DNA from: Nocardiopsis halotolerans DSM 44410
GTDB taxonomy: Bacteria; Actinomycetota; Actinomycetes; Streptosporangiales; Streptosporangiaceae
Direction: 5' to 3'
DNA length: 37,988 bases
Assembly: GCF_000341065.1 (NCBI RefSeq)
Contig: NZ_ANAX01000223.1
Coordinates: 1 to 37,988 of the forward strand
Shown one piece after another: positions 27,810 to 37,988 of the stretch; the stretch's first letter is position 1, and every line of letters begins with the position of its first letter. The notes beneath the pieces are model-generated. The model saw only the letters and a program-made list of their open reading frames with translations. It did no database searches and was not told the DNA's origin. Position numbers and translations under genes: made by a program.

Positions 27810-27846
27810 GCGCGGCGCGGGCCCTGTGGGGGGATCCGCGCCGCGC
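27810..27846 (-). terminator. Second intra-operon hairpin, binding protein to permease
   Basis: GCGCGGCGCGG (27810-27820) pairs with CCGCGCCGCGC (27836-27846), an 11-bp stem with a 15-base loop. With the hairpin at 27919-27935 it probably lowers permease mRNA relative to the binding-protein mRNA. Confidence 0.5.
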
Positions 27847-27918
27847 TCACTCGCCCGGGGCGTCCCCCGGCCGGGCTTCTCGCGCCGTGCCTCGGCCGGG
27901 GGTGGGGAGCGGTCGGCG

Positions 27919-27935
27919 GGGGGAGAGCCTCCCCC
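27919..27935 (-). terminator. Hairpin just after the binding-protein gene
   Basis: GGGGGAG-AGC-CTCCCCC is a 7-bp stem with a 3-base loop, 4 bases past the stop codon on the minus strand. It is placed like the 8483-8510 hairpin of the first ABC operon. Confidence 0.5.
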
Positions 27936-27939
27936 GGTC

Positions 27940-29649
27940 CTAGCCGACCGGTTCGATCTCCGCGAGGGTGTTGATACCGCCCATCTCGTACCAGCCCTCC
28001 CACATGACCGCGGCGCTGTTGGGCGTGCCCTCGGCCTCGCTGGGCCAGTTGGTCCAGTGGGTGTTGTTGGCCTGCGACCACTGGCCGTTGTACCAGAGCG
28101 GGATGACCGGGAGCTCGGCCAGGAAGATCTCCTGGAGCTGCGAGGTGACCTCGGCGGCGGCCTCGACGTCACCGGCGGGGACGCGTGCGAGCTCCTCGGT
28201 GAGCTGCCACGCCTCCTCGTTCTCGTACCGGTGGAAGTTCACCGTGGTCTGCTCGTCCTGGATGGGCAGCTGGAAGAGGTAGTCGTAGTAGGTCCACGGC
28301 GAGTTGCTCAGCTGCCGGGCGTTGTTGATCACCAGGTCGTACTCGCCGGCGTTCCGGTTCTGGTCGAGCAGACCCTGGTCGGGGAACTCGGCCGTGATGT
28401 TGATGCCGACGTCCTGGGCGTGCTGCTCGATGAGGCGGGCGGCCTCCATCCAGTCGGTCCACCCGGAGGGGACCTCCAGGGTCAGGGCGATGGGCTCGCC
28501 GTCGGGCGTCTCGACGAAGCCGTCGCCGTCCTCGTCCATGTACCCGGCTTCCTCCAGGATCGCCACGGCCTCGGCCGCGTCGTGGCTGAAGCCCTCCTCG
28601 GAGACCAGTTCGTGGTCGATGTAGGCGTCCCACTCGGGCAGCAGGCCGGTGGGGTTGGCCGGCTGGACGAGGTTGGCGTACGGGCCCTCGACGATCTCGG
28701 TGATGTTGATCGAGTGGGCCAGGGCCTGGCGGAAGGCCGTGTCGTCGAGCGGCGCGCGGTTGTGGTTCGGGACGAGCCACGCCGTGTTGGCGCTCTTCAT
28801 GTACGGGGGGCCCTCGTAGAAGCTGACGATGTTCTCGTTGCTGTTGAGGAGCTGGTCGATCCCCGGGAGGAAGTTGTTCGAGAGGTCGACCTCACCCTGG
28901 GTCAGCATGCCCATCGTCACGTCGTTGGAGGCGTTGACGATGTCGACGATGTAGCGCGCGTCCATGGTCATGTCGAGCGCGTCGGTGGCCCACCACTCGT
29001 CGTTGCGCTCCCAGATCATGCGGTCGTCGGTGTGCGACTCGTAGACGTAGGGGCCGGTGCCGACCGGGTTCTCGTTGGCGCTGTCGGTGATGTCGGTGGC
29101 CGACATGTCACCCCAGACGTGCGCGGGGAGGATGGGGTTGGAGTAGGCCCAGTTCATCCACTCCTGCGGGCGGCTCTCCGAGAAGGTCACGGTGACCGTG
29201 CGCTCGTCGGTGGCCTCGACGTTCTCGATGTAGTCCCAGACGTTGCCGTAGGGGACTCCGTCGGTCTGGCCGAGCTCCAGCGTGGTGACCACGTCCTGGG
29301 CGACCAGCGGCTCACCGTCGTTCCACGTGACGCCCTCGCGCAGGGTGATCTCGTGGACGGTGTCGGAGACCCACTCGTCGCTCTCGGCGAGCCAGTGCAC
29401 GTACTCGCCCGTCTCCGGGTCGTAGTGGAAGAGCGACTCGTAGACCAGGCCGATCGTGCCGACCGCGAATCCGCCCCTCATCATGGGGTTCCAGCTGGTC
29501 GGCGCGGACCAGGCCGTACCCGTGGTGTACAGGGTCTCACCCCGGGGGTAACCCGAACCAGGGCCGCCGTCCCCGCCGTCGGCACCCGCGCAGGCGGTGG
29601 CCGCGAGGGCCAGCGCCGCGAGTGCCGCCGGAAGCCTCAGCATTCTCAT
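27940..29649 (-). CDS. Substrate-binding lipoprotein (SBP_bac_5 family), probable oligosaccharide binding
   Basis: 569 residues from ATG 29649, preceded by GGAAGGAGGAG. The lipoprotein signal (MRMLRLPAALAALALAATAC) puts the lipidated cysteine at residue 20. Family-5 features include TSWNPMMRGGFAVGTIGLVYESLF, HEITLREGVTWNDGEPLVAQDVV, NPVGTGPYVYESHTDD, FRQALAHSINITEIVEG and a late LINNARQLSNSPWTYYDYLF-like segment. It is rich in Trp/Tyr in likely binding loops (EWWATD, QEWMNWAYSNP, WTNWPSEAEG), as in sugar-binding members. A CelR/CebR-type box at 29707-29720 and a LacI-type gene upstream support cello- or other oligosaccharide uptake. A peptide substrate remains possible. Confidence 0.88.
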   Translation of the reverse strand: MRMLRLPAALAALALAATACAGADGGDGGPGSGYPRGETLYTTGTAWSAPTSWNPMMRGGFAVGTIGLVYESLFHYDPETGEYVHWLAESDEWVSDTVHEITLREGVTWNDGEPLVAQDVVTTLELGQTDGVPYGNVWDYIENVEATDERTVTVTFSESRPQEWMNWAYSNPILPAHVWGDMSATDITDSANENPVGTGPYVYESHTDDRMIWERNDEWWATDALDMTMDARYIVDIVNASNDVTMGMLTQGEVDLSNNFLPGIDQLLNSNENIVSFYEGPPYMKSANTAWLVPNHNRAPLDDTAFRQALAHSINITEIVEGPYANLVQPANPTGLLPEWDAYIDHELVSEEGFSHDAAEAVAILEEAGYMDEDGDGFVETPDGEPIALTLEVPSGWTDWMEAARLIEQHAQDVGINITAEFPDQGLLDQNRNAGEYDLVINNARQLSNSPWTYYDYLFQLPIQDEQTTVNFHRYENEEAWQLTEELARVPAGDVEAAAEVTSQLQEIFLAELPVIPLWYNGQWSQANNTHWTNWPSEAEGTPNSAAVMWEGWYEMGGINTLAEIEPVG

Positions 29650-29706
29650 CTCGACTCCTCCTTCCACCCGGCCGGTCCGTGGGGGGCCCTCCGAGAGGCG
29701 GAAGGT

Positions 29707-29720
29707 TGGGAGCGCTCCCA
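29707..29720. promoter_or_regulatory. CelR/CebR-type operator
   Basis: TGGGAGCGCTCCCA is a perfect 14-bp palindrome identical to the operator known for CelR in Thermobifida and CebR in Streptomyces, which control cellulase and cellobiose-uptake genes. It lies 58 bases before the binding-protein start, just downstream of the likely transcription start, so it would act as a block to transcription. Confidence 0.85.
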
Positions 29721-29741
29721 GTAGTGAGCGCACAAGACCGT

Positions 29742-31116: not shown

Positions 31117-32001
31117 TCACAAACCACCCTGGCATCCGGGGCACCAGTAGAGAGTGCGTCCGGCCAGTTCCGACGAGGCGACCGGAGAGGAGCACACGCG
31201 GCAGGGGTCACCGGTCCGGTAGCACACGTAGAGGGTGTCGGGCCGGGGCACGGGACGCGCGTCGGGGTCGGGACGGTGTTCGGGGAGGGTCGTGATGATG
31301 TAGCCGTCGCGGACACCGTCGCGGAGCAGCCCCGAGAGGTCGTCCCACAGCCGCGCCCACTGGTCGGGGGTGAGGTCGCGGCCCGGGGTCATGGGGTCCA
31401 GGCCCGCCCGGAACAGCGACTCCGCGCGGTAGATGTTGCCGATGCCCGCGACGACGTCCTGGCGCATGAGCAGCGCGGCGACACTGGTCCGGGAGCGGCT
31501 GATCACGCGCCATGCCCGTTCCGGGTCGGCGTCGTCGCGCAGGGGGTCGGGTCCCAGCCTCTCCTGGACGGCCCGCTTCTCGTCCTCGGTGATGACCTCG
31601 CAGGCCGAGGGGCCGCGCAGGTCGGCCCAGCCTGAGGAGTTGACCAGGCGTGCGCGCACCGCGCCGACCGGCTCGGGTGGAAGGACGAAGCCCTCGTCGT
31701 CGCGGACCAGGTCCAGGCGGGCCCCGCCCTCGGCCCGCGGGGCGCCCAGGTGGCGTTCACCGTCGGCGTCACCGAAGGACCAGGCGCCGTACAGCCCCAG
31801 GTGGACCCGCAGCCACTCCCCCGAGTCGAACCCGAGGAAGAGGTGCTTGCCGTGCGCCTCGCTCTCGGTGAGGACCCGGCCGTCGACGCGCGCGGCACCG
31901 TCGGCGAAGCGTCCCTGCGGGCTGCTCGCACGCACCGTGCCGCCGCCGAAGGTCTTGTCGAAGTGCGCCGCAAGCCGGTGCAGCGTGTGGCCCTCAGGCA
32001 C
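31117..32001 (-). CDS. nei: Fpg/Nei-family DNA glycosylase/AP lyase (endonuclease VIII-like)
   Basis: 294 residues from GTG 32001; the mature protein must start PEGHT, since the family uses the N-terminal proline as nucleophile and E3 (MPEGH) as proton shuttle. Longer readings would bury these residues. The N-terminal beta-sandwich carries ESEAHGKHLFLGFDSGEWLRVHLGLYGAW, with the conserved lysine in HGKHLF. The helix-two-turn-helix includes LLMRQDVVAGIGNIYRAESLFRAGLDP. The zinc finger has C267-x2-C270 and C287-x2-C290, with the DNA-contact arginine in GRTLYWCPGC. It removes oxidised bases in base excision repair. HTLHR after the PEG is typical of the Nei rather than Fpg branch. It appears to be a single-gene unit. 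Confidence 0.93.
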   Translation of the reverse strand: MPEGHTLHRLAAHFDKTFGGGTVRASSPQGRFADGAARVDGRVLTESEAHGKHLFLGFDSGEWLRVHLGLYGAWSFGDADGERHLGAPRAEGGARLDLVRDDEGFVLPPEPVGAVRARLVNSSGWADLRGPSACEVITEDEKRAVQERLGPDPLRDDADPERAWRVISRSRTSVAALLMRQDVVAGIGNIYRAESLFRAGLDPMTPGRDLTPDQWARLWDDLSGLLRDGVRDGYIITTLPEHRPDPDARPVPRPDTLYVCYRTGDPCRVCSSPVASSELAGRTLYWCPGCQGGL

Positions 32002-32200
32002 CCGTGTTCCCCTCTCCCGTCCGCACGGCCCGGGAACCACCGCGTTCCGGACATCCGGGACCCAGGGTAGTGCGCGCCCGGCCAGCTCTGTCCGCCGCGA
32101 TCTTGTACTCATGGCGAGGCTCGACGGTCGAGGCAGGCCACAGGCACAAGATCAGCTCAGGTCAGAGTGTTCCAGTCACACCGGCAACGTATTCGGTCGA

Positions 32201-32232
32201 CCCACTGGCCCCCGTCAGGGCCCGTCAGTGGG
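32201..32232 (-). terminator. Stem-loop at the end of the pseudo-helicase gene
   Basis: CCCACTG (32201-32207) pairs with CAGTGGG (32226-32232), with an inner GCCC/GGGC pairing. It overlaps the stop codon of the leftward gene (32225-32227). There is no U tract. Confidence 0.45.
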
Positions 32233-35200
32233 CGACGAGGATCTCCTGGACGAGGGCGCGCGTGTCGGCCAGGCAGCGCCATGCGGGCACCACGACCACG
32301 GGGTCGCCGGTGGCCCGGTTGAGCGACTCGCCGCGGGCGAGCAGGCGGCGCAGCGACCGGCCGTCGGGTTCACGGTCGAGCAGGAGCAGCAGGCGGCGGG
32401 AACCGAAGCGGACCACCATGTCGGCGGTCCAGCCCTCCACCGTCTGCTGGAGGGCCACCCCCGTGCCCACCCGGCGCAGCTCCTCCACCAGCGCGGAGGC
32501 GGCCGGATCGGTCCGCGCCGGAGGGGTGCCGGAAAGCTGCGCCTCCAGGTCGCCCAACGGGCCGTCGTCCTCCGACCAGTACTTCCGGTCACCCACCACC
32601 ACGAGCCGCTGGCGGGGACGGGTCAGCACCGACGACCACAGGTGTCCCATCCGGCGGATCCGCCGTTCGGCGATGGCGGGGGCTCCGGCGGTGAGCATCG
32701 GTGAGAGCACGGTGACGTCCGCCGCGTCGTGGTCGTCCGCCAGCAGGTCGGGGCCGCCCACCCGCACCTCGTGGCGCAGGACGCGTGTACCCAGCAGGCG
32801 GCGTACCAGGGCCACCTGGGGCTGGGTCGGCGCGACCACCGCGACCACGCGGTCCGCGGGGAGCCGCTCGTCGATCTCGTCCACCACCACCGCCACGCGG
32901 TAGGCCTCGTCCCGGTTGACGTAGGAGGCCCCCGGCGCCGCCTCGCAGACGCCGGTGACGTCGCGCCAGGCGAACTCCGGGCCTCCGGTGGGATCGGGGT
33001 TCGTGCACACCGTGAGCCTGTCCCCGTAGCAGTGCCGCGACGCGGCCCCGGCTAGTCGCGGCGGCGCCCCCTCGTGCTCGTCCAGCCAGAGCATGGGCGG
33101 CGCCGCCCGGTGCAGGGCGCGCAGGGCCGAACCGGAGCCGTGGCGCAGGCCCCGGTCGTCCAACTGGTCGGCGGCCAACCCCGCCGCGGCCAGCGCGCGG
33201 CGCTCCTCGTCCGGTTCCAGCACGCTCACCGGACCCGGGTGCGCGGGGTCGCCGAACACCACGGCGCGGTTGGCACGGTAGAGCACGGGCAGCAGCTCGG
33301 CCAGCCGTGTGCGTTCCGCCCCGACCACGACCACCAGGTCGAACAGGCCCGCACGCGGCGGCAGGACCCGGACCTGGTCGGTGCGGCACGTCCAGGTGGG
33401 CAGGGTGTCGAGCAGGTTGTCCATACCGGGCCAGCCGCGACCGTGGTACCAGTTGAGGGTCTCCAGACGGTTCTCGATGGCGGCGCGGCCCCGCCACAGC
33501 CGGGGTTCGCTGACCGCGCGCAGACAGGCGGCGCTGGACCTGCGATGCCGGGCGAGGGCGTCGGCCAGTTCGGCGGTCAGTTCGCCCAGCGGCGCGCAGC
33601 GGGTGCGCCGGTCCACGGCCGCCCGCCACTCGCTCTCCAGGCGGGCGACCGCGTACAGGCGCGCGAGGCCCTCGGGGTCGGTGGCCGCACCCAGTTCACG
33701 GCGGACGGCGCCGCGGTGCGCCATCGCCGTGACGCCGCCCGCCCTGGCGCGTTCGATCCGCTGCGACCAGTACTCGGGGCCGCCCCGCTCCGGAGTGAAG
33801 AGGGCGTCGGGGTCCCAGCCCTGCGCGATGACGCGGTCGCGCTCCTCGGCCAGGCGGGCGAGCGTGTGCCCGTCGGAGGCCATGGTGTCCATGGCCAGCC
33901 ACGCGTCGCGGACCCCCGCCCAGTCCTCGGCCAGGTTCGCCCGCTGGGCGGTGGGATCGTCCCCGTCCGGTTCGGTGGCGGGCAGGCTGCGGGAGTGCTC
34001 GGTGAGGAGCCGGGTGAGCATGAGGACCTCGGCGGCGCGGTGTTCGCGTCCGCCCACGCGCACGACCGGGTGCGCCGGGGAGGTGTCCGCCCGGACAGCG
34101 GTCGCGGTGACGTCGGCCTCGCCGTGTCCGCAGACCAGGACGCGCTGGCCCTTGCTGACGGCGGTGCGGACGAGGGCGTCGACCAGGTCGTGCACACCGC
34201 TCCCGGGAGGGGCGGCGGCCACGGTGAGCTGTTCGCGCATGGCGGCGCACAGGACGGCGTACTGGGACTGGTTGAGGGCGGTCGCGGAGATCGGGACGGG
34301 AGGCCCCTCGATGTCCTCGGGGGGACCGGTGCGCGCGGCGCGCCGGGTGCTGGCCCGTCCGCCGCGGAAGAGCCGTCCGGGCGCGGCGGGAGCGGTGGCA
34401 CCGGCACGTCGGCCCGCGGCGGCCTGCCCGAGCAGGGACTCCAGCGCGGTCCCGCTGACGTCGTCGGGGTTGAGGCCGTCGCGGTCGGAGGTGTCGAGGT
34501 CGGCCAGGACGCCCTCGACACCGAGGGGTTCGTCCTCGTCGGCCTCGTCCTGACCGCCGGGACCGGCGCGGAAGAGCACGGCGACGTTGTGGGCGCCGTC
34601 GGCACCGGCCCGGAGGGAGTCCCGGACGCCGAGGGGAGCGATGTCGTCCGCCCTCTCGATCCCCATACGGGCGAGGAGGGTACGCACCCTGGTGGCGAGG
34701 TCGGTGACGGCGGCGGGGCGCCGTACGGGGTCGGGCGCCTCGGAGCGCAGCCGGGTTCGGAGTTCGAACAGGTCCTCGGGGTCGGTGACGCCGAGGCGCC
34801 TCAGGAGGGCGGGGTTGACGTCGGGCGGGCCGACCGCGCGGACCAGCGTGTCCCCGGGCGCGGTACGGGGGCCTCCGGTCTCGTCCACGGCCCGCACGTC
34901 GACGGTGAGCAGCGGCAGGGCGACGCGGTCGGCGCCCCGGCCCAGGACCACGAGCGGATAGCCGTAGCGCGGTGTCTGTCCCCGCTTCTGGGCCACGCGC
35001 AGCACCCGTGCGGTCTCGGCGTGCAGCGGGAGGGTCTCCCCGAAACCGCTGAACAGGACCTCGGGTCCCGGCGGCAGGCACGCGCAGAGGTCGGATCCGA
35101 GGTCGTCGGCCAGGATCGTGTGGGTGTGCACGGCCTCGCGCCGCAGACAGGCGCGCAGGTAGGACAGGAGGGAGCGCACCTCGGAGCGGTCGACCGGCGG

Positions 35201-35353
35201 CTTCCAGCGCAGCGAGGCGGCGCCGACCCCCGACCGGCCGACCGGGCCGGGTGCCGCGGGAGGGTCCCCGGAGATCCCCGGTGCCAGCCCCGGCACGCCC
35301 CTGTACCCGGCCTCGTGCTCGTCGTCCCGCAGTGACCTCAACGTCGCCCCCAC
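32225..35353 (-). CDS. SF1 (UPF1-like) helicase homologue with degenerate ATPase motifs
   Basis: 1042 residues from GTG 35353; the start is uncertain (no clear ribosome site, a ~50-residue Gly/Pro-rich lead). Residues ~55-155 form an N-terminal domain of unknown role, ~180-245 two helical repeats (LRRLGVTDPEDLF, LLARMGIERADDIAPLG). Residues 358-420 match the start of the UPF1/DNA2-type helicase core: SATALNQSQYAVLCAAMREQLTV, then APPGSGVH (381-388) where GPPGTGKS is expected. Residues 671-710 match motifs II-III: FDLVVVVGAER where FDLVIVDEASQ is expected, then AVVFGDPAHPGPV. Motif VI is kept: SSVLTRPRQRLVVVGDRKYW (907-926). So the Walker lysine and both DE acids are gone. The C-terminus (~951-1042) resembles a restriction-nuclease-like fold seen behind such helicases, also without clear catalytic residues. 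The length and frame are intact, so it is a conserved-looking pseudoenzyme, not decay. Confidence 0.75.
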   Translation of the reverse strand: MGATLRSLRDDEHEAGYRGVPGLAPGISGDPPAAPGPVGRSGVGAASLRWKPPVDRSEVRSLLSYLRACLRREAVHTHTILADDLGSDLCACLPPGPEVLFSGFGETLPLHAETARVLRVAQKRGQTPRYGYPLVVLGRGADRVALPLLTVDVRAVDETGGPRTAPGDTLVRAVGPPDVNPALLRRLGVTDPEDLFELRTRLRSEAPDPVRRPAAVTDLATRVRTLLARMGIERADDIAPLGVRDSLRAGADGAHNVAVLFRAGPGGQDEADEDEPLGVEGVLADLDTSDRDGLNPDDVSGTALESLLGQAAAGRRAGATAPAAPGRLFRGGRASTRRAARTGPPEDIEGPPVPISATALNQSQYAVLCAAMREQLTVAAAPPGSGVHDLVDALVRTAVSKGQRVLVCGHGEADVTATAVRADTSPAHPVVRVGGREHRAAEVLMLTRLLTEHSRSLPATEPDGDDPTAQRANLAEDWAGVRDAWLAMDTMASDGHTLARLAEERDRVIAQGWDPDALFTPERGGPEYWSQRIERARAGGVTAMAHRGAVRRELGAATDPEGLARLYAVARLESEWRAAVDRRTRCAPLGELTAELADALARHRRSSAACLRAVSEPRLWRGRAAIENRLETLNWYHGRGWPGMDNLLDTLPTWTCRTDQVRVLPPRAGLFDLVVVVGAERTRLAELLPVLYRANRAVVFGDPAHPGPVSVLEPDEERRALAAAGLAADQLDDRGLRHGSGSALRALHRAAPPMLWLDEHEGAPPRLAGAASRHCYGDRLTVCTNPDPTGGPEFAWRDVTGVCEAAPGASYVNRDEAYRVAVVVDEIDERLPADRVVAVVAPTQPQVALVRRLLGTRVLRHEVRVGGPDLLADDHDAADVTVLSPMLTAGAPAIAERRIRRMGHLWSSVLTRPRQRLVVVGDRKYWSEDDGPLGDLEAQLSGTPPARTDPAASALVEELRRVGTGVALQQTVEGWTADMVVRFGSRRLLLLLDREPDGRSLRRLLARGESLNRATGDPVVVVPAWRCLADTRALVQEILVAH

Positions 35354-35450: not shown

Positions 35451-36908
35451 TCACCCCGGGTGATCCCGGGAGGCCCCGTGGACGCGCAGGGCGATCCAGA
35501 GTTCGGCCCGGTAGTCGGGGTCGTCCAGGTCGCCGGGGAGCAGGTCGCGGATGCGCCGCATACGGTAGCGGAGGGTGTGCCGGTGGATCCCGAGGGTCTC
35601 CGAAGCCGCGTCCCACCGGCCCGAGGCCGCGAGGTAGGCGCGCAGCGAGGCGAGCAGTTCGGCCGAGGTCCGCTGCTCCAGGAGGGGAGCGAGCAGGTCC
35701 CCGGCCATGCGGGCACCGGCGGGTGTGTCCGCCAGTCCGAGCAGGCCGCCGGGCAGGTCACCGACCCGGAGGACCTCCTCCCCCGCACCGCGCGCGGCGG
35801 CCAGCGCGCGTTCGGCCTGGGAGAGGGCGGCGGCCAGTTCCGCGTAGGAGGACGGGTCGCTCACCCCGACCGGACCCTCCAGGACCTCACCGATCACCGC
35901 GGTGCCCGTGTTCGCCGGGGCGAGCAACAGGGCCCGGCCGTCGTGCTCGGTGGCCAGGACGCCCTCGGGCGGGTGCGCGGGCCCGGTCGCGTCCGCGGTC
36001 GCCACCACGACCGGTTCGGGCGGAAGGACCTCCCGCAGGCGCGCCGCTCCCGGATGGAGCGGGTCCAGGGCCCCGGTGAGCAGGGCCGACAGCACCCCCT
36101 CGCGCACATGCGCGGTGGCGTTGTGCGCGCTGCGCTCCAGTTCGAGGGAGAGCAGCGACACGGCCGCGTTGACCAGCGTGCGCTCGTCGGATCCGAGCCG
36201 CCCGCCGGTGCCCACGGCGAGGAATCCGCGGATGCGGCGGCCGGTGGCCAGGGGCTGGACGGAGACGTGTTCGCCGCCCGAGGTCAGGGAGACGCTGGCG
36301 CGCAGCCCCGCGTCGCGCAGCCTGTCCAGCTCCGCGGCCAGTCCGGCGGCGCGCCCGGCGGCCCGTGCGGGGGCCGCGTGCCGGACGTCCCCGTCGGCGG
36401 TCAGCAGGAGCACCCAGGCGTCGAGGTCGCGGGCCAGCCGGTCCGTGACGGCCGCCGCGCCGGTGAGCGCGGCGCGGGTGAGGTCGCGCTGGGCGGCGAA
36501 GGCCCGGCTCAGACCCTCGTACTCCTCCTTCGCCAGGAGTCGGGACACCTCCTTGCCGATCGCGATGAAGGGGGTCTCCCGGCTCACCTCCAGCAGGGTG
36601 AGGCCGAACTCCTCGGCGGCCTCGTGGAGCCGCTCGGGGGTCCGCTCCAGGACCACGCCGACCGCGAAGCCCAGCGCGGTGACGCGGCGCTCGGCCAGGC
36701 GGCGTGTGTAGTCGCGCAGGTCGGGCACACCGGTGGCCCAGCGCACGCCGGTGGTGAGGAGGAGCTCGCCGCCCGCCAGGTAGGGGGTGGGGTCCTCCAG
36801 CTCGCTGACCGCGACCCACTCCACCTGCCGGTCCAGGTTCTCCTGGCCGGTGAGCAGGTTCAGGCGCAGGCGCGGTGTGCGCATCAGGGCACCCAGGGTC
36901 GGTGGCAT
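35451..36908 (-). CDS. PucR-family transcriptional regulator
   Basis: 485 residues from ATG 36908, preceded by GGAGGGAGAG. The N-terminal PucR domain is clear (TLGALMRTPRLRLNLLTGQENLDRQVEWVAVSELEDPTPYLAGGELLLTTG). A central GGDEF-like/ligand region follows, and the C-terminal helix-turn-helix reads ASLRAYLAASGRWDAASETLGIHRHTLRYRMRRIRDLL, the typical HTH_30 end. In other bacteria PucR-type proteins activate purine, GABA or amino-acid catabolic genes. It is divergent from the gabT-type aminotransferase with 176 bases between the two starts, so it most likely controls that gene in response to GABA or a derivative. No specific operator was found in that gap. Confidence 0.93.
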   Translation of the reverse strand: MPPTLGALMRTPRLRLNLLTGQENLDRQVEWVAVSELEDPTPYLAGGELLLTTGVRWATGVPDLRDYTRRLAERRVTALGFAVGVVLERTPERLHEAAEEFGLTLLEVSRETPFIAIGKEVSRLLAKEEYEGLSRAFAAQRDLTRAALTGAAAVTDRLARDLDAWVLLLTADGDVRHAAPARAAGRAAGLAAELDRLRDAGLRASVSLTSGGEHVSVQPLATGRRIRGFLAVGTGGRLGSDERTLVNAAVSLLSLELERSAHNATAHVREGVLSALLTGALDPLHPGAARLREVLPPEPVVVATADATGPAHPPEGVLATEHDGRALLLAPANTGTAVIGEVLEGPVGVSDPSSYAELAAALSQAERALAAARGAGEEVLRVGDLPGGLLGLADTPAGARMAGDLLAPLLEQRTSAELLASLRAYLAASGRWDAASETLGIHRHTLRYRMRRIRDLLPGDLDDPDYRAELWIALRVHGASRDHPG

Positions 36909-37084
36909 CCGTCTCTCCCTCCTCCGGGTGTGCTCCGTGTGAACCCTGACGCGTTGGCACAAGGCTCAGCCCCGATTATCCACCGTGTCCATGTGTGAGG
37001 TGCTCGGCGCGTCCTAGTGTCATGCCAGGCCGGGGAGCCCACCCCCGGCCTTCCTCCCCGTCGAGCGCAGAAGGAGGCAGCCGT

Positions 37085-37988
37085 ATGGCAGCGACCGAGG
37101 TCGTCCAGTCCCGTCGGGTCGTCACCGAGATCCCCGGCCCCAAGTCCCGCGCGATCCAGGAGCGCCGCCGTTCGGCCGTCGCCCAGGGCGTGGGCAGTGT
37201 CCTGCCCGTCTACGTCGAGCGCGCCGGTGGCGGCATCGTCGAGGACGTCGACGGCAACGCGCTGATCGACTTCGGTTCCGGCATCGCCGTGACCAACGTC
37301 GGCAACGCCGACCCGCGTGTGGTGGAGAGCGCCGCCGAGCAGCTCGGCCGCTTCACGCACACCTGCTTCATGGTGAACCCGTACGAGGCGTACGTGGACG
37401 TGTGCGAGGCGCTGAACCGTGTCACGCCGGGCGACCACGAGAAGCGGTCGATCCTGCTCAACTCGGGCGCCGAGGCGGTCGAGAACGCGGTGAAGATCGC
37501 CCGCAGCGCGACCGGCCGCCAGGCGGTGGTGGTGTTCGACCACGCCTACCACGGCCGCACCAACCTCACCATGGGGCTGACCGCGAAGAACATGCCCTAC
37601 AAGCAGGGCTTCGGTCCGTTCGCCGGTGAGATCCACCGGATGCCGATGGCCTACCCGTACCGCTGGCCCACGGGCCCGGAGAACTGCGGCCCCGAGGCCG
37701 CGGCCATGGTGATCGAGCAGATCACCAAGCAGATCGGCGCCCAGAACGTGGCGGCCGTGGTGATCGAGCCGATCCAGGGCGAGGGCGGCTTCATCGAGCC
37801 CGCTCCCGGCTTCCTGCCCGCGGTGGTCGAGTTCTGCCGCGCCAACGGCATCGTGTTCGTCGCCGACGAGGTGCAGACCGGTTTCGCCCGTACCGGCCAC
37901 ATGTTCGCCAGTGAGCACGAGGGCGTGGTCCCGGACCTGATCACGACCGCCAAGGGCATCGCGGGCGGCCTGCCGCTGGCCGCCGTGA
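37085..37988 (+). CDS. gabT: 4-aminobutyrate aminotransferase, partial (runs off right edge)
   Basis: 301 codons are present from ATG 37085 (AAGGAGG upstream); the frame is open at the edge. It is a class-III PLP aminotransferase: VERAGGGIVEDVDGNALIDFGSGIAVTNVGN, ILLNSGAEAVENAVKIARSATGR (the phosphate-binding SGAEA), FDHAYHGRTNLTMGLTAKNMPYKQGFGPF, VIEPIQGEGGF, and VADEVQTGFARTGHMFA with the PLP-ring aspartate. The Schiff-base lysine is K290 in TTAKGIAGGLPL. GABA aminotransferase is the best fit by the GFGPFAGEI and NMPYKQG pieces. The reaction gives succinate semialdehyde and glutamate. A succinate-semialdehyde dehydrogenase gene might follow beyond the edge. The divergent PucR gene is the likely regulator. 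Confidence 0.92.
   Translation, partial: MAATEVVQSRRVVTEIPGPKSRAIQERRRSAVAQGVGSVLPVYVERAGGGIVEDVDGNALIDFGSGIAVTNVGNADPRVVESAAEQLGRFTHTCFMVNPYEAYVDVCEALNRVTPGDHEKRSILLNSGAEAVENAVKIARSATGRQAVVVFDHAYHGRTNLTMGLTAKNMPYKQGFGPFAGEIHRMPMAYPYRWPTGPENCGPEAAAMVIEQITKQIGAQNVAAVVIEPIQGEGGFIEPAPGFLPAVVEFCRANGIVFVADEVQTGFARTGHMFASEHEGVVPDLITTAKGIAGGLPLAAV

Follow-up and report, generated by a model that had tools for sequence, protein, structure and literature searches.

We report that a gene in a 37,988-nucleotide stretch of Nocardiopsis halotolerans DSM 44410 (contig NZ_ANAX01000223.1; the whole stretch is called the window here) probably encodes a pseudoenzyme that descends from an EACC1-associated caspase-helicase effector and has been co-opted as a non-catalytic scaffold or adaptor. 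The open reading frame (32225-35353) lies on the minus strand, and the same interval read on the plus strand holds internal stops. The initial annotation had described its product as a helicase-like protein of superfamily 1 (SF1) that had lost its ATPase residues; correct-frame alignment with intact homologues confirms that this loss is real and extends to more motifs than was claimed. V387 occupies the site of the Walker A lysine, H388 that of the Ser/Thr, and V677-G678 that of the DE pair of motif II. Further losses include the YRCHP element, which reads EGAPP, as well as sequences characteristic of motifs Ia, III and V. The gene and its landmarks are as follows:

32225-35353, minus strand: pseudo-helicase gene, 1042 codons as listed, probable start TTG at 35341
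34424-35191, minus strand: residues 55-310, N-terminal part superposing within the UPF1/IGHMBP2 helicase fold (the model range starts at residues 53-57)
34190-34213, minus strand: former Walker A (motif I) APPGSGVH, residues 381-388, which keeps the glycines and has lost Lys and Ser/Thr
34106-34144, minus strand: former motif Ia region, residues 404-416; STNN of the intact relatives lost
33314-33325, minus strand: former Walker B (motif II) VGAE, residues 677-680; DE lost
33230-33253, minus strand: motif III GDPAHPGP, residues 701-708; Gln replaced by His
32717-32767, minus strand: former motif V region, residues 863-879; THxFQGGE of the intact relatives lost, new conserved RVGGPDLL
32588-32644, minus strand: motif VI, residues 904-922; arginines kept (TRPR/TRTR)
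32228-32521, minus strand: C-terminal restriction-endonuclease-like fold, residues 945-1042; D978 and D993 invariant

Conservation of the degenerate state argues for a property of the lineage. Both the Walker A lysine and the motif II DE pair are absent from all 33 full-length Nocardiopsis orthologues, and the lysine is also missing from 8/8 orthologues in other genera of the same family (~37-51% identical where they align); it is kept in 11/11 intact relatives in the alignment. The Walker A Ser/Thr position is H in most of the 33 orthologues and Y, T, D, N or A in the rest. The expectation that the DE pair would be lost throughout the clade holds within Nocardiopsis and fails outside it, since locus L068 retains DEAD, L070 (DAAD) and L072 (DRAE) retain the first Asp, and the other-genus orthologues besides these have lost it. 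The simplest order of decay, read from the alignment, would be loss of the lysine first and of motif II later, in several lineages. Motif III, where the initial annotation had reported a match, keeps its GDP and loses the Gln (GDPAH for GDPHQ). The reported match at motif VI stands: R912 and R916 are present in 25/25 Nocardiopsis alignment rows, with TRPR in the window protein, TRTR in most other orthologues and TRAR in the intact relatives. The motif IV Gln is also kept, and the old motif sites carry new, strictly conserved residues, namely G678, E680 and RVGGPDLL. Pfam AAA_11 and AAA_12 match the window protein only below their cut-offs. Sequencing or frame error as the cause of motif loss is ruled out, as all orthologues agree. 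Altogether, the alignments strongly support the view that the canonical ATPase machinery is gone and that the window protein is a pseudoenzyme.

AlphaFold2, run for the full-length protein on a 44-row alignment, gave a predicted local distance difference test score (pLDDT) of 86.4 and a predicted template modelling score (pTM) of 0.86. Compared with model residues 53-944 by VIA-align, UPF1 scored Z 21.6 (457 residues aligned), IGHMBP2 Z 21.4 and DNA2 Z 19.6; these values are used because Foldseek alignments of the full-length model have root-mean-square deviations of ~17-37 angstrom in the UPF1-like rows. A sequence search against solved structures matched only IGHMBP2, and weakly. The window protein is therefore predicted to adopt a Upf1-like SF1B helicase fold, with two RecA domains bearing Upf1-type insertions, and the earlier proposal of a selected pseudo-helicase of UPF1/DNA2 type agrees with the model scores, the orthologues and the substitution rates given below. 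With the Upf1-like SF1B helicases (UPF1, IGHMBP2, DNA2 and Sen1/senataxin) it shares the common fold (Z 19-22 for UPF1, IGHMBP2 and DNA2) and the motif VI arginines; it differs from them in having no Walker A Lys, motif II DE, motif III Gln or motif V, and in its restriction-endonuclease-like C-terminus. Predicted alone, residues 934-1042 reached a pLDDT of 89.7 and resembled 3hrl (Z 10.3), I-Bth0305I (Z 10.1) and Hjc (Z 9.6), and a sequence profile of the C-terminus found nothing credible. In alignment A4, on which the C-terminal comparison rests, D978 and D993 are invariant in dead and intact relatives, and the usual (E/Q)xK partner is recognisable in neither.

The origin of the protein became apparent from a second protein, present in about a dozen Nocardiopsis genomes, of ~1240 residues and with all helicase motifs intact, which is ~32% identical to the window protein over ~1000 residues. 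The N-terminus of one such intact protein (L031) matches Pfam C14 (7e-17) and the NCBIfam model 'caspase, EACC1-associated type' (NF047832; 152 bits, cut-off 140). Directly upstream of the intact gene, at 13/13 loci, lies a small gene encoding one hydrophobic stretch; these small genes are mutually similar, and we label them EACC1-like on the basis of position, mutual similarity and the published description of the system, no Pfam or NCBIfam model naming them. The intact relatives share the architecture given for the EACC1-associated caspase two-gene conflict system in the section devoted to it by Kaur et al. 2020 (PMC7159879): an upstream EACC1-like gene, a caspase N-terminus and a variable effector C-terminus, here an SF1 helicase plus an endonuclease-like domain. 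That section names neither an SF1 helicase fusion nor a dead derivative, and the relevant literature retrieved for EACC1 amounts to two papers, both belonging to one line of work. The dead clade aligns to the intact relatives along its length, and a tree built from the helicase part gives 100/100 support both to the clade of 11 intact sequences and to that of 33 dead ones. Judging from these matches, the nearest relatives with intact motifs are caspase-SF1 helicase proteins of the EACC1-associated type, an origin newly identified here. The window protein differs from that system in having a dead helicase, no caspase domain and no EACC1-like gene, and its gene belongs to the core genome and keeps a fixed position, whereas EACC1 systems are patchy. 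At one further locus, in a Nocardiopsis genome (L040, G039:C11:106500-113000), an intact-type caspase-helicase is split into several frames with the EACC1-like gene still beside it, apparently a conflict system in decay.

Intermediates between the two states are found in four dead orthologues of other genera (L068, L070, L071 and L072), which form one branch and still hold a caspase-like domain. In these four the catalytic His is replaced by R, G, Y or V and the Cys by Q, H, R or G, while both residues are kept in 14/14 intact proteins; the EACC1-caspase model still recognises L068 (E 3e-14). The dead-clade branch that includes Nocardiopsis has no caspase domain, and the window protein has no Pfam C14 match. 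The window's genome contains no match to NF047832, nor do 17 other genomes of the genus; the present role of the protein therefore does not need an EACC1-type caspase. As judged from alignments and gene neighbourhoods, the dead clade lacks the Walker A lysine, has its caspase pair replaced where the domain survives, shows uneven decay of motif II and is without an EACC1-like partner, a search of dead loci having turned up none. We tentatively suggest a stepwise decommissioning in which the caspase pair, Walker A and the partner gene went before motif II and the caspase domain, and which perhaps yielded a core protein that is conserved, lacks catalysis and serves a new role in the cell; it would be a bacterial parallel to the pseudoenzymes derived from immune effectors.

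The gene occupies a conserved site, flanked in the window by the following neighbours:

31117-32112, minus strand: Nei/Fpg-type DNA glycosylase gene (nei), downstream conserved neighbour; probable start VPEGH at 32001
35451-36962, minus strand: PucR-type regulator gene (pucR), upstream conserved neighbour
36995-37988, plus strand: 4-aminobutyrate-aminotransferase-like gene, start only, divergent from pucR and part of the conserved site; named by eye from the sequence

The minus-strand run comprises the pucR regulator, the pseudo-helicase, nei, a LacI regulator and an oligopeptide-type ABC transporter, and in Nocardiopsis the site follows a conserved gabT-pucR-X-nei order. The pseudo-helicase is present in 40/40 genomes of Nocardiopsis, a genus of soil bacteria, full length in 33, cut by contig ends in 5 and disrupted in 2, so that its frame is intact in 33/35 genomes whose locus is not cut. 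The disrupted copies lie in G009 (L047, G009:C1:1141000-1149500; several frames with TGA) and in G028 (L027, G028:C75; TAG). The G009 assembly is 84% complete, and errors are likely there. By pairwise counting, which is rough at this G+C, the median ratio of nonsynonymous to synonymous substitution rates (dN/dS) is 0.44-0.46 for the pseudo-helicase, as against same-genome values of 0.16 for nei, 0.35 for pucR, 0.30 for lacI and 0.13 for the aminotransferase gene; the ratio is not near 1, the value that would have indicated decay. Over a nucleotide tree of the 33 orthologues with a length of 7.6 substitutions per site, an unconstrained gene should have gained ~458 nonsense changes; the 33 frames show 0. 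These figures indicate that the protein is constrained under purifying selection, evolving faster than its neighbours, and is not a relic. Pairwise distances correlate with those of the neighbouring genes (r 0.84 for nei, 0.91 for pucR and 0.90 for lacI), as expected under vertical descent. The comparisons within the genus thus describe a core gene passed down vertically in its place between pucR and nei. An alignment-based scan of contigs for relatives gave 32 loci, a plasmid search with the window protein returned no match, and genome searches showed that many genera of the family lack the gene. In genus g31 it is present in one of four genomes sampled (L073 in G069, with no nei nearby) and the other three gave no match, a patchiness that would reflect loss or transfer. 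An orthologue with 79% identity lies in record NYMS01000012.1 (L100), which bears the title 'Glycomyces fuscus'.

We propose that the protein would work without ATP, as a rigid helicase-shaped body joined to the C-terminal nuclease-like domain and to a disordered tail bearing RSLRDDE, and that it would bind a protein partner as a scaffold or adaptor, possibly with a static nucleic-acid contact. The tail element is:

35318-35338, minus strand: conserved N-terminal peptide RSLRDDE, residues 6-12, candidate binding motif in the predicted disordered tail

Residues 1-50 have pLDDT <50 in the AlphaFold model, and R-S-L opens all 33 full-length Nocardiopsis orthologues. Several points weigh against this proposal. 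The scaffolding role is derived indirectly, and its partner is hypothetical. The pseudo-helicase evolves faster than its neighbours (0.44 vs 0.13-0.35), so constraint is moderate, and the 33 frames in which stops were counted had been chosen as full-length, two other genomes holding a broken copy. The tree of the helicase part is rooted at the midpoint only. Non-canonical ATP binding is possible, as the protein retains its P-loop glycines and the Arg of motif VI, and the invariant D978 and D993 make residual nuclease activity possible.

Other roles can be weighed on the same evidence. E. coli RecC is a pseudohelicase that carries a dead nuclease domain, and the window protein could by analogy be an ATP-independent reader of nucleic acids, its dead helicase body and putatively dead nuclease domain recognising a DNA or RNA feature and signalling to another protein. 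Retention of a Upf1-like nucleic-acid-binding fold, of the motif VI arginines and the motif IV Gln, and of the restriction-endonuclease-like C-terminus is consistent with such a role. The motifs through which active relatives touch the nucleic-acid backbone, Ia and V, are however missing in Nocardiopsis and degenerate elsewhere in the dead clade; this makes a simple nucleic-acid sensor, which the initial annotation had suggested alongside a scaffold, less likely, and we consider a reader unlikely in general. Such a role would have a precedent in Deinococcus radiodurans PriA, a bacterial pseudohelicase that still binds DNA (PMC4504706). PriA and RecC resemble the window protein in being helicase-derived and selectively kept without ATPase motifs; they differ in that PriA belongs to superfamily 2, RecC has a RecB-like SF1A fold and both act in known repair or replication machines, whereas the window protein is Upf1-like and appears to come from a conflict effector. 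No recB- or recD-type genes were recognised beside the locus, in a survey that included no search aimed at them.

The earlier statement that the gene has no obvious partner needs qualifying, as all Nocardiopsis genomes checked for nei, and 7/8 other genera, have it downstream on the same strand, even where genes are inserted between the two. An accessory function for this base-excision glycosylase is nevertheless improbable: the genes are separated by gaps of ~100-200 bp or more, and neither overlap nor form a tight operon; genomes G049, G045, G054, G055 and G096 have a nei relative but no pseudo-helicase; and pucR, lacI and the aminotransferase gene share the synteny, so the linkage may be ancestral order. 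In the genus of G049, pucR adjoins nei with only an unrelated membrane-protein-like frame between them, which suggests an older pucR-nei neighbourhood that either gained the pseudo-helicase or has since lost it. The direct homology of the protein to the effector, and the presence of both proteins in the dozen or so Nocardiopsis genomes mentioned above, would fit a role as decoy for, or regulator of, intact EACC1-caspase systems of the same cell. The 18 genomes without an EACC1-caspase match all keep the dead gene, however, so regulating an intact copy cannot be its general role, and the Nocardiopsis copies lack the caspase domain, the expected route of such an interaction; we therefore regard a decoy as very improbable. 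Slow decay of a functionless relic would account for the gene being the fastest-evolving of the five neighbourhood genes measured, for its disruption in G009 and G028 and for its absence from many genera. It has scarcely any probability in our estimation, given a gene retained throughout the genus, the missing nonsense changes and the newly conserved G678, E680, RVGGPDLL and RSLRDDE. A scaffold or adaptor of effector origin remains the interpretation we favour.

Bacterial caspase domains conserved without their His-Cys pair have been described in the pseudo-orthocaspases of cyanobacteria and Alphaproteobacteria, which carry Tyr/Ser instead (PMC6426788). The likeness to L068, L070, L071 and L072 lies in a caspase domain kept without its catalytic pair; in the present family, by contrast, the replacing residues differ between proteins, a dead helicase is attached to the domain, and the Nocardiopsis proteins have lost it. 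Effector-derived pseudoenzymes of immunity and cell death are well known in animals and plants, and clear bacterial examples with intermediates are few. In the present family the steps can be read across genera, from intact EACC1-caspase-helicases through doubly dead caspase-helicases to caspase-less dead helicase core genes, and this offers a ready series of proteins for testing how a toxic effector becomes a household protein. It is also a warning that homology-based helicase annotation can name dead proteins. Among defence-library profiles, the best matches of the window protein were to the Mokosh (MkoC/MkoA), Hhe, ProA and PLuB helicases, within the helicase core only (MkoC 4e-13). Mokosh MkoC is an SF1 helicase fused to a phospholipase-D-like nuclease; membership of that system was rejected, the match being a partial, low-score one to the core and Pfam detecting no phospholipase-D-like domain in the window protein.

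The true start of the pseudo-helicase is probably the TTG at residue 5 (35341), because other orthologues begin with V/M/L-RSLRDDE. Overlapping plus-strand open reading frames (for example 33074-35335, 753 amino acids) were rejected as genes, having no family match and being a by-product of high G+C. Together with 27826-29724, which likewise runs antisense to real genes without a family match, this very long plus-strand frame makes the window a trap for gene callers.

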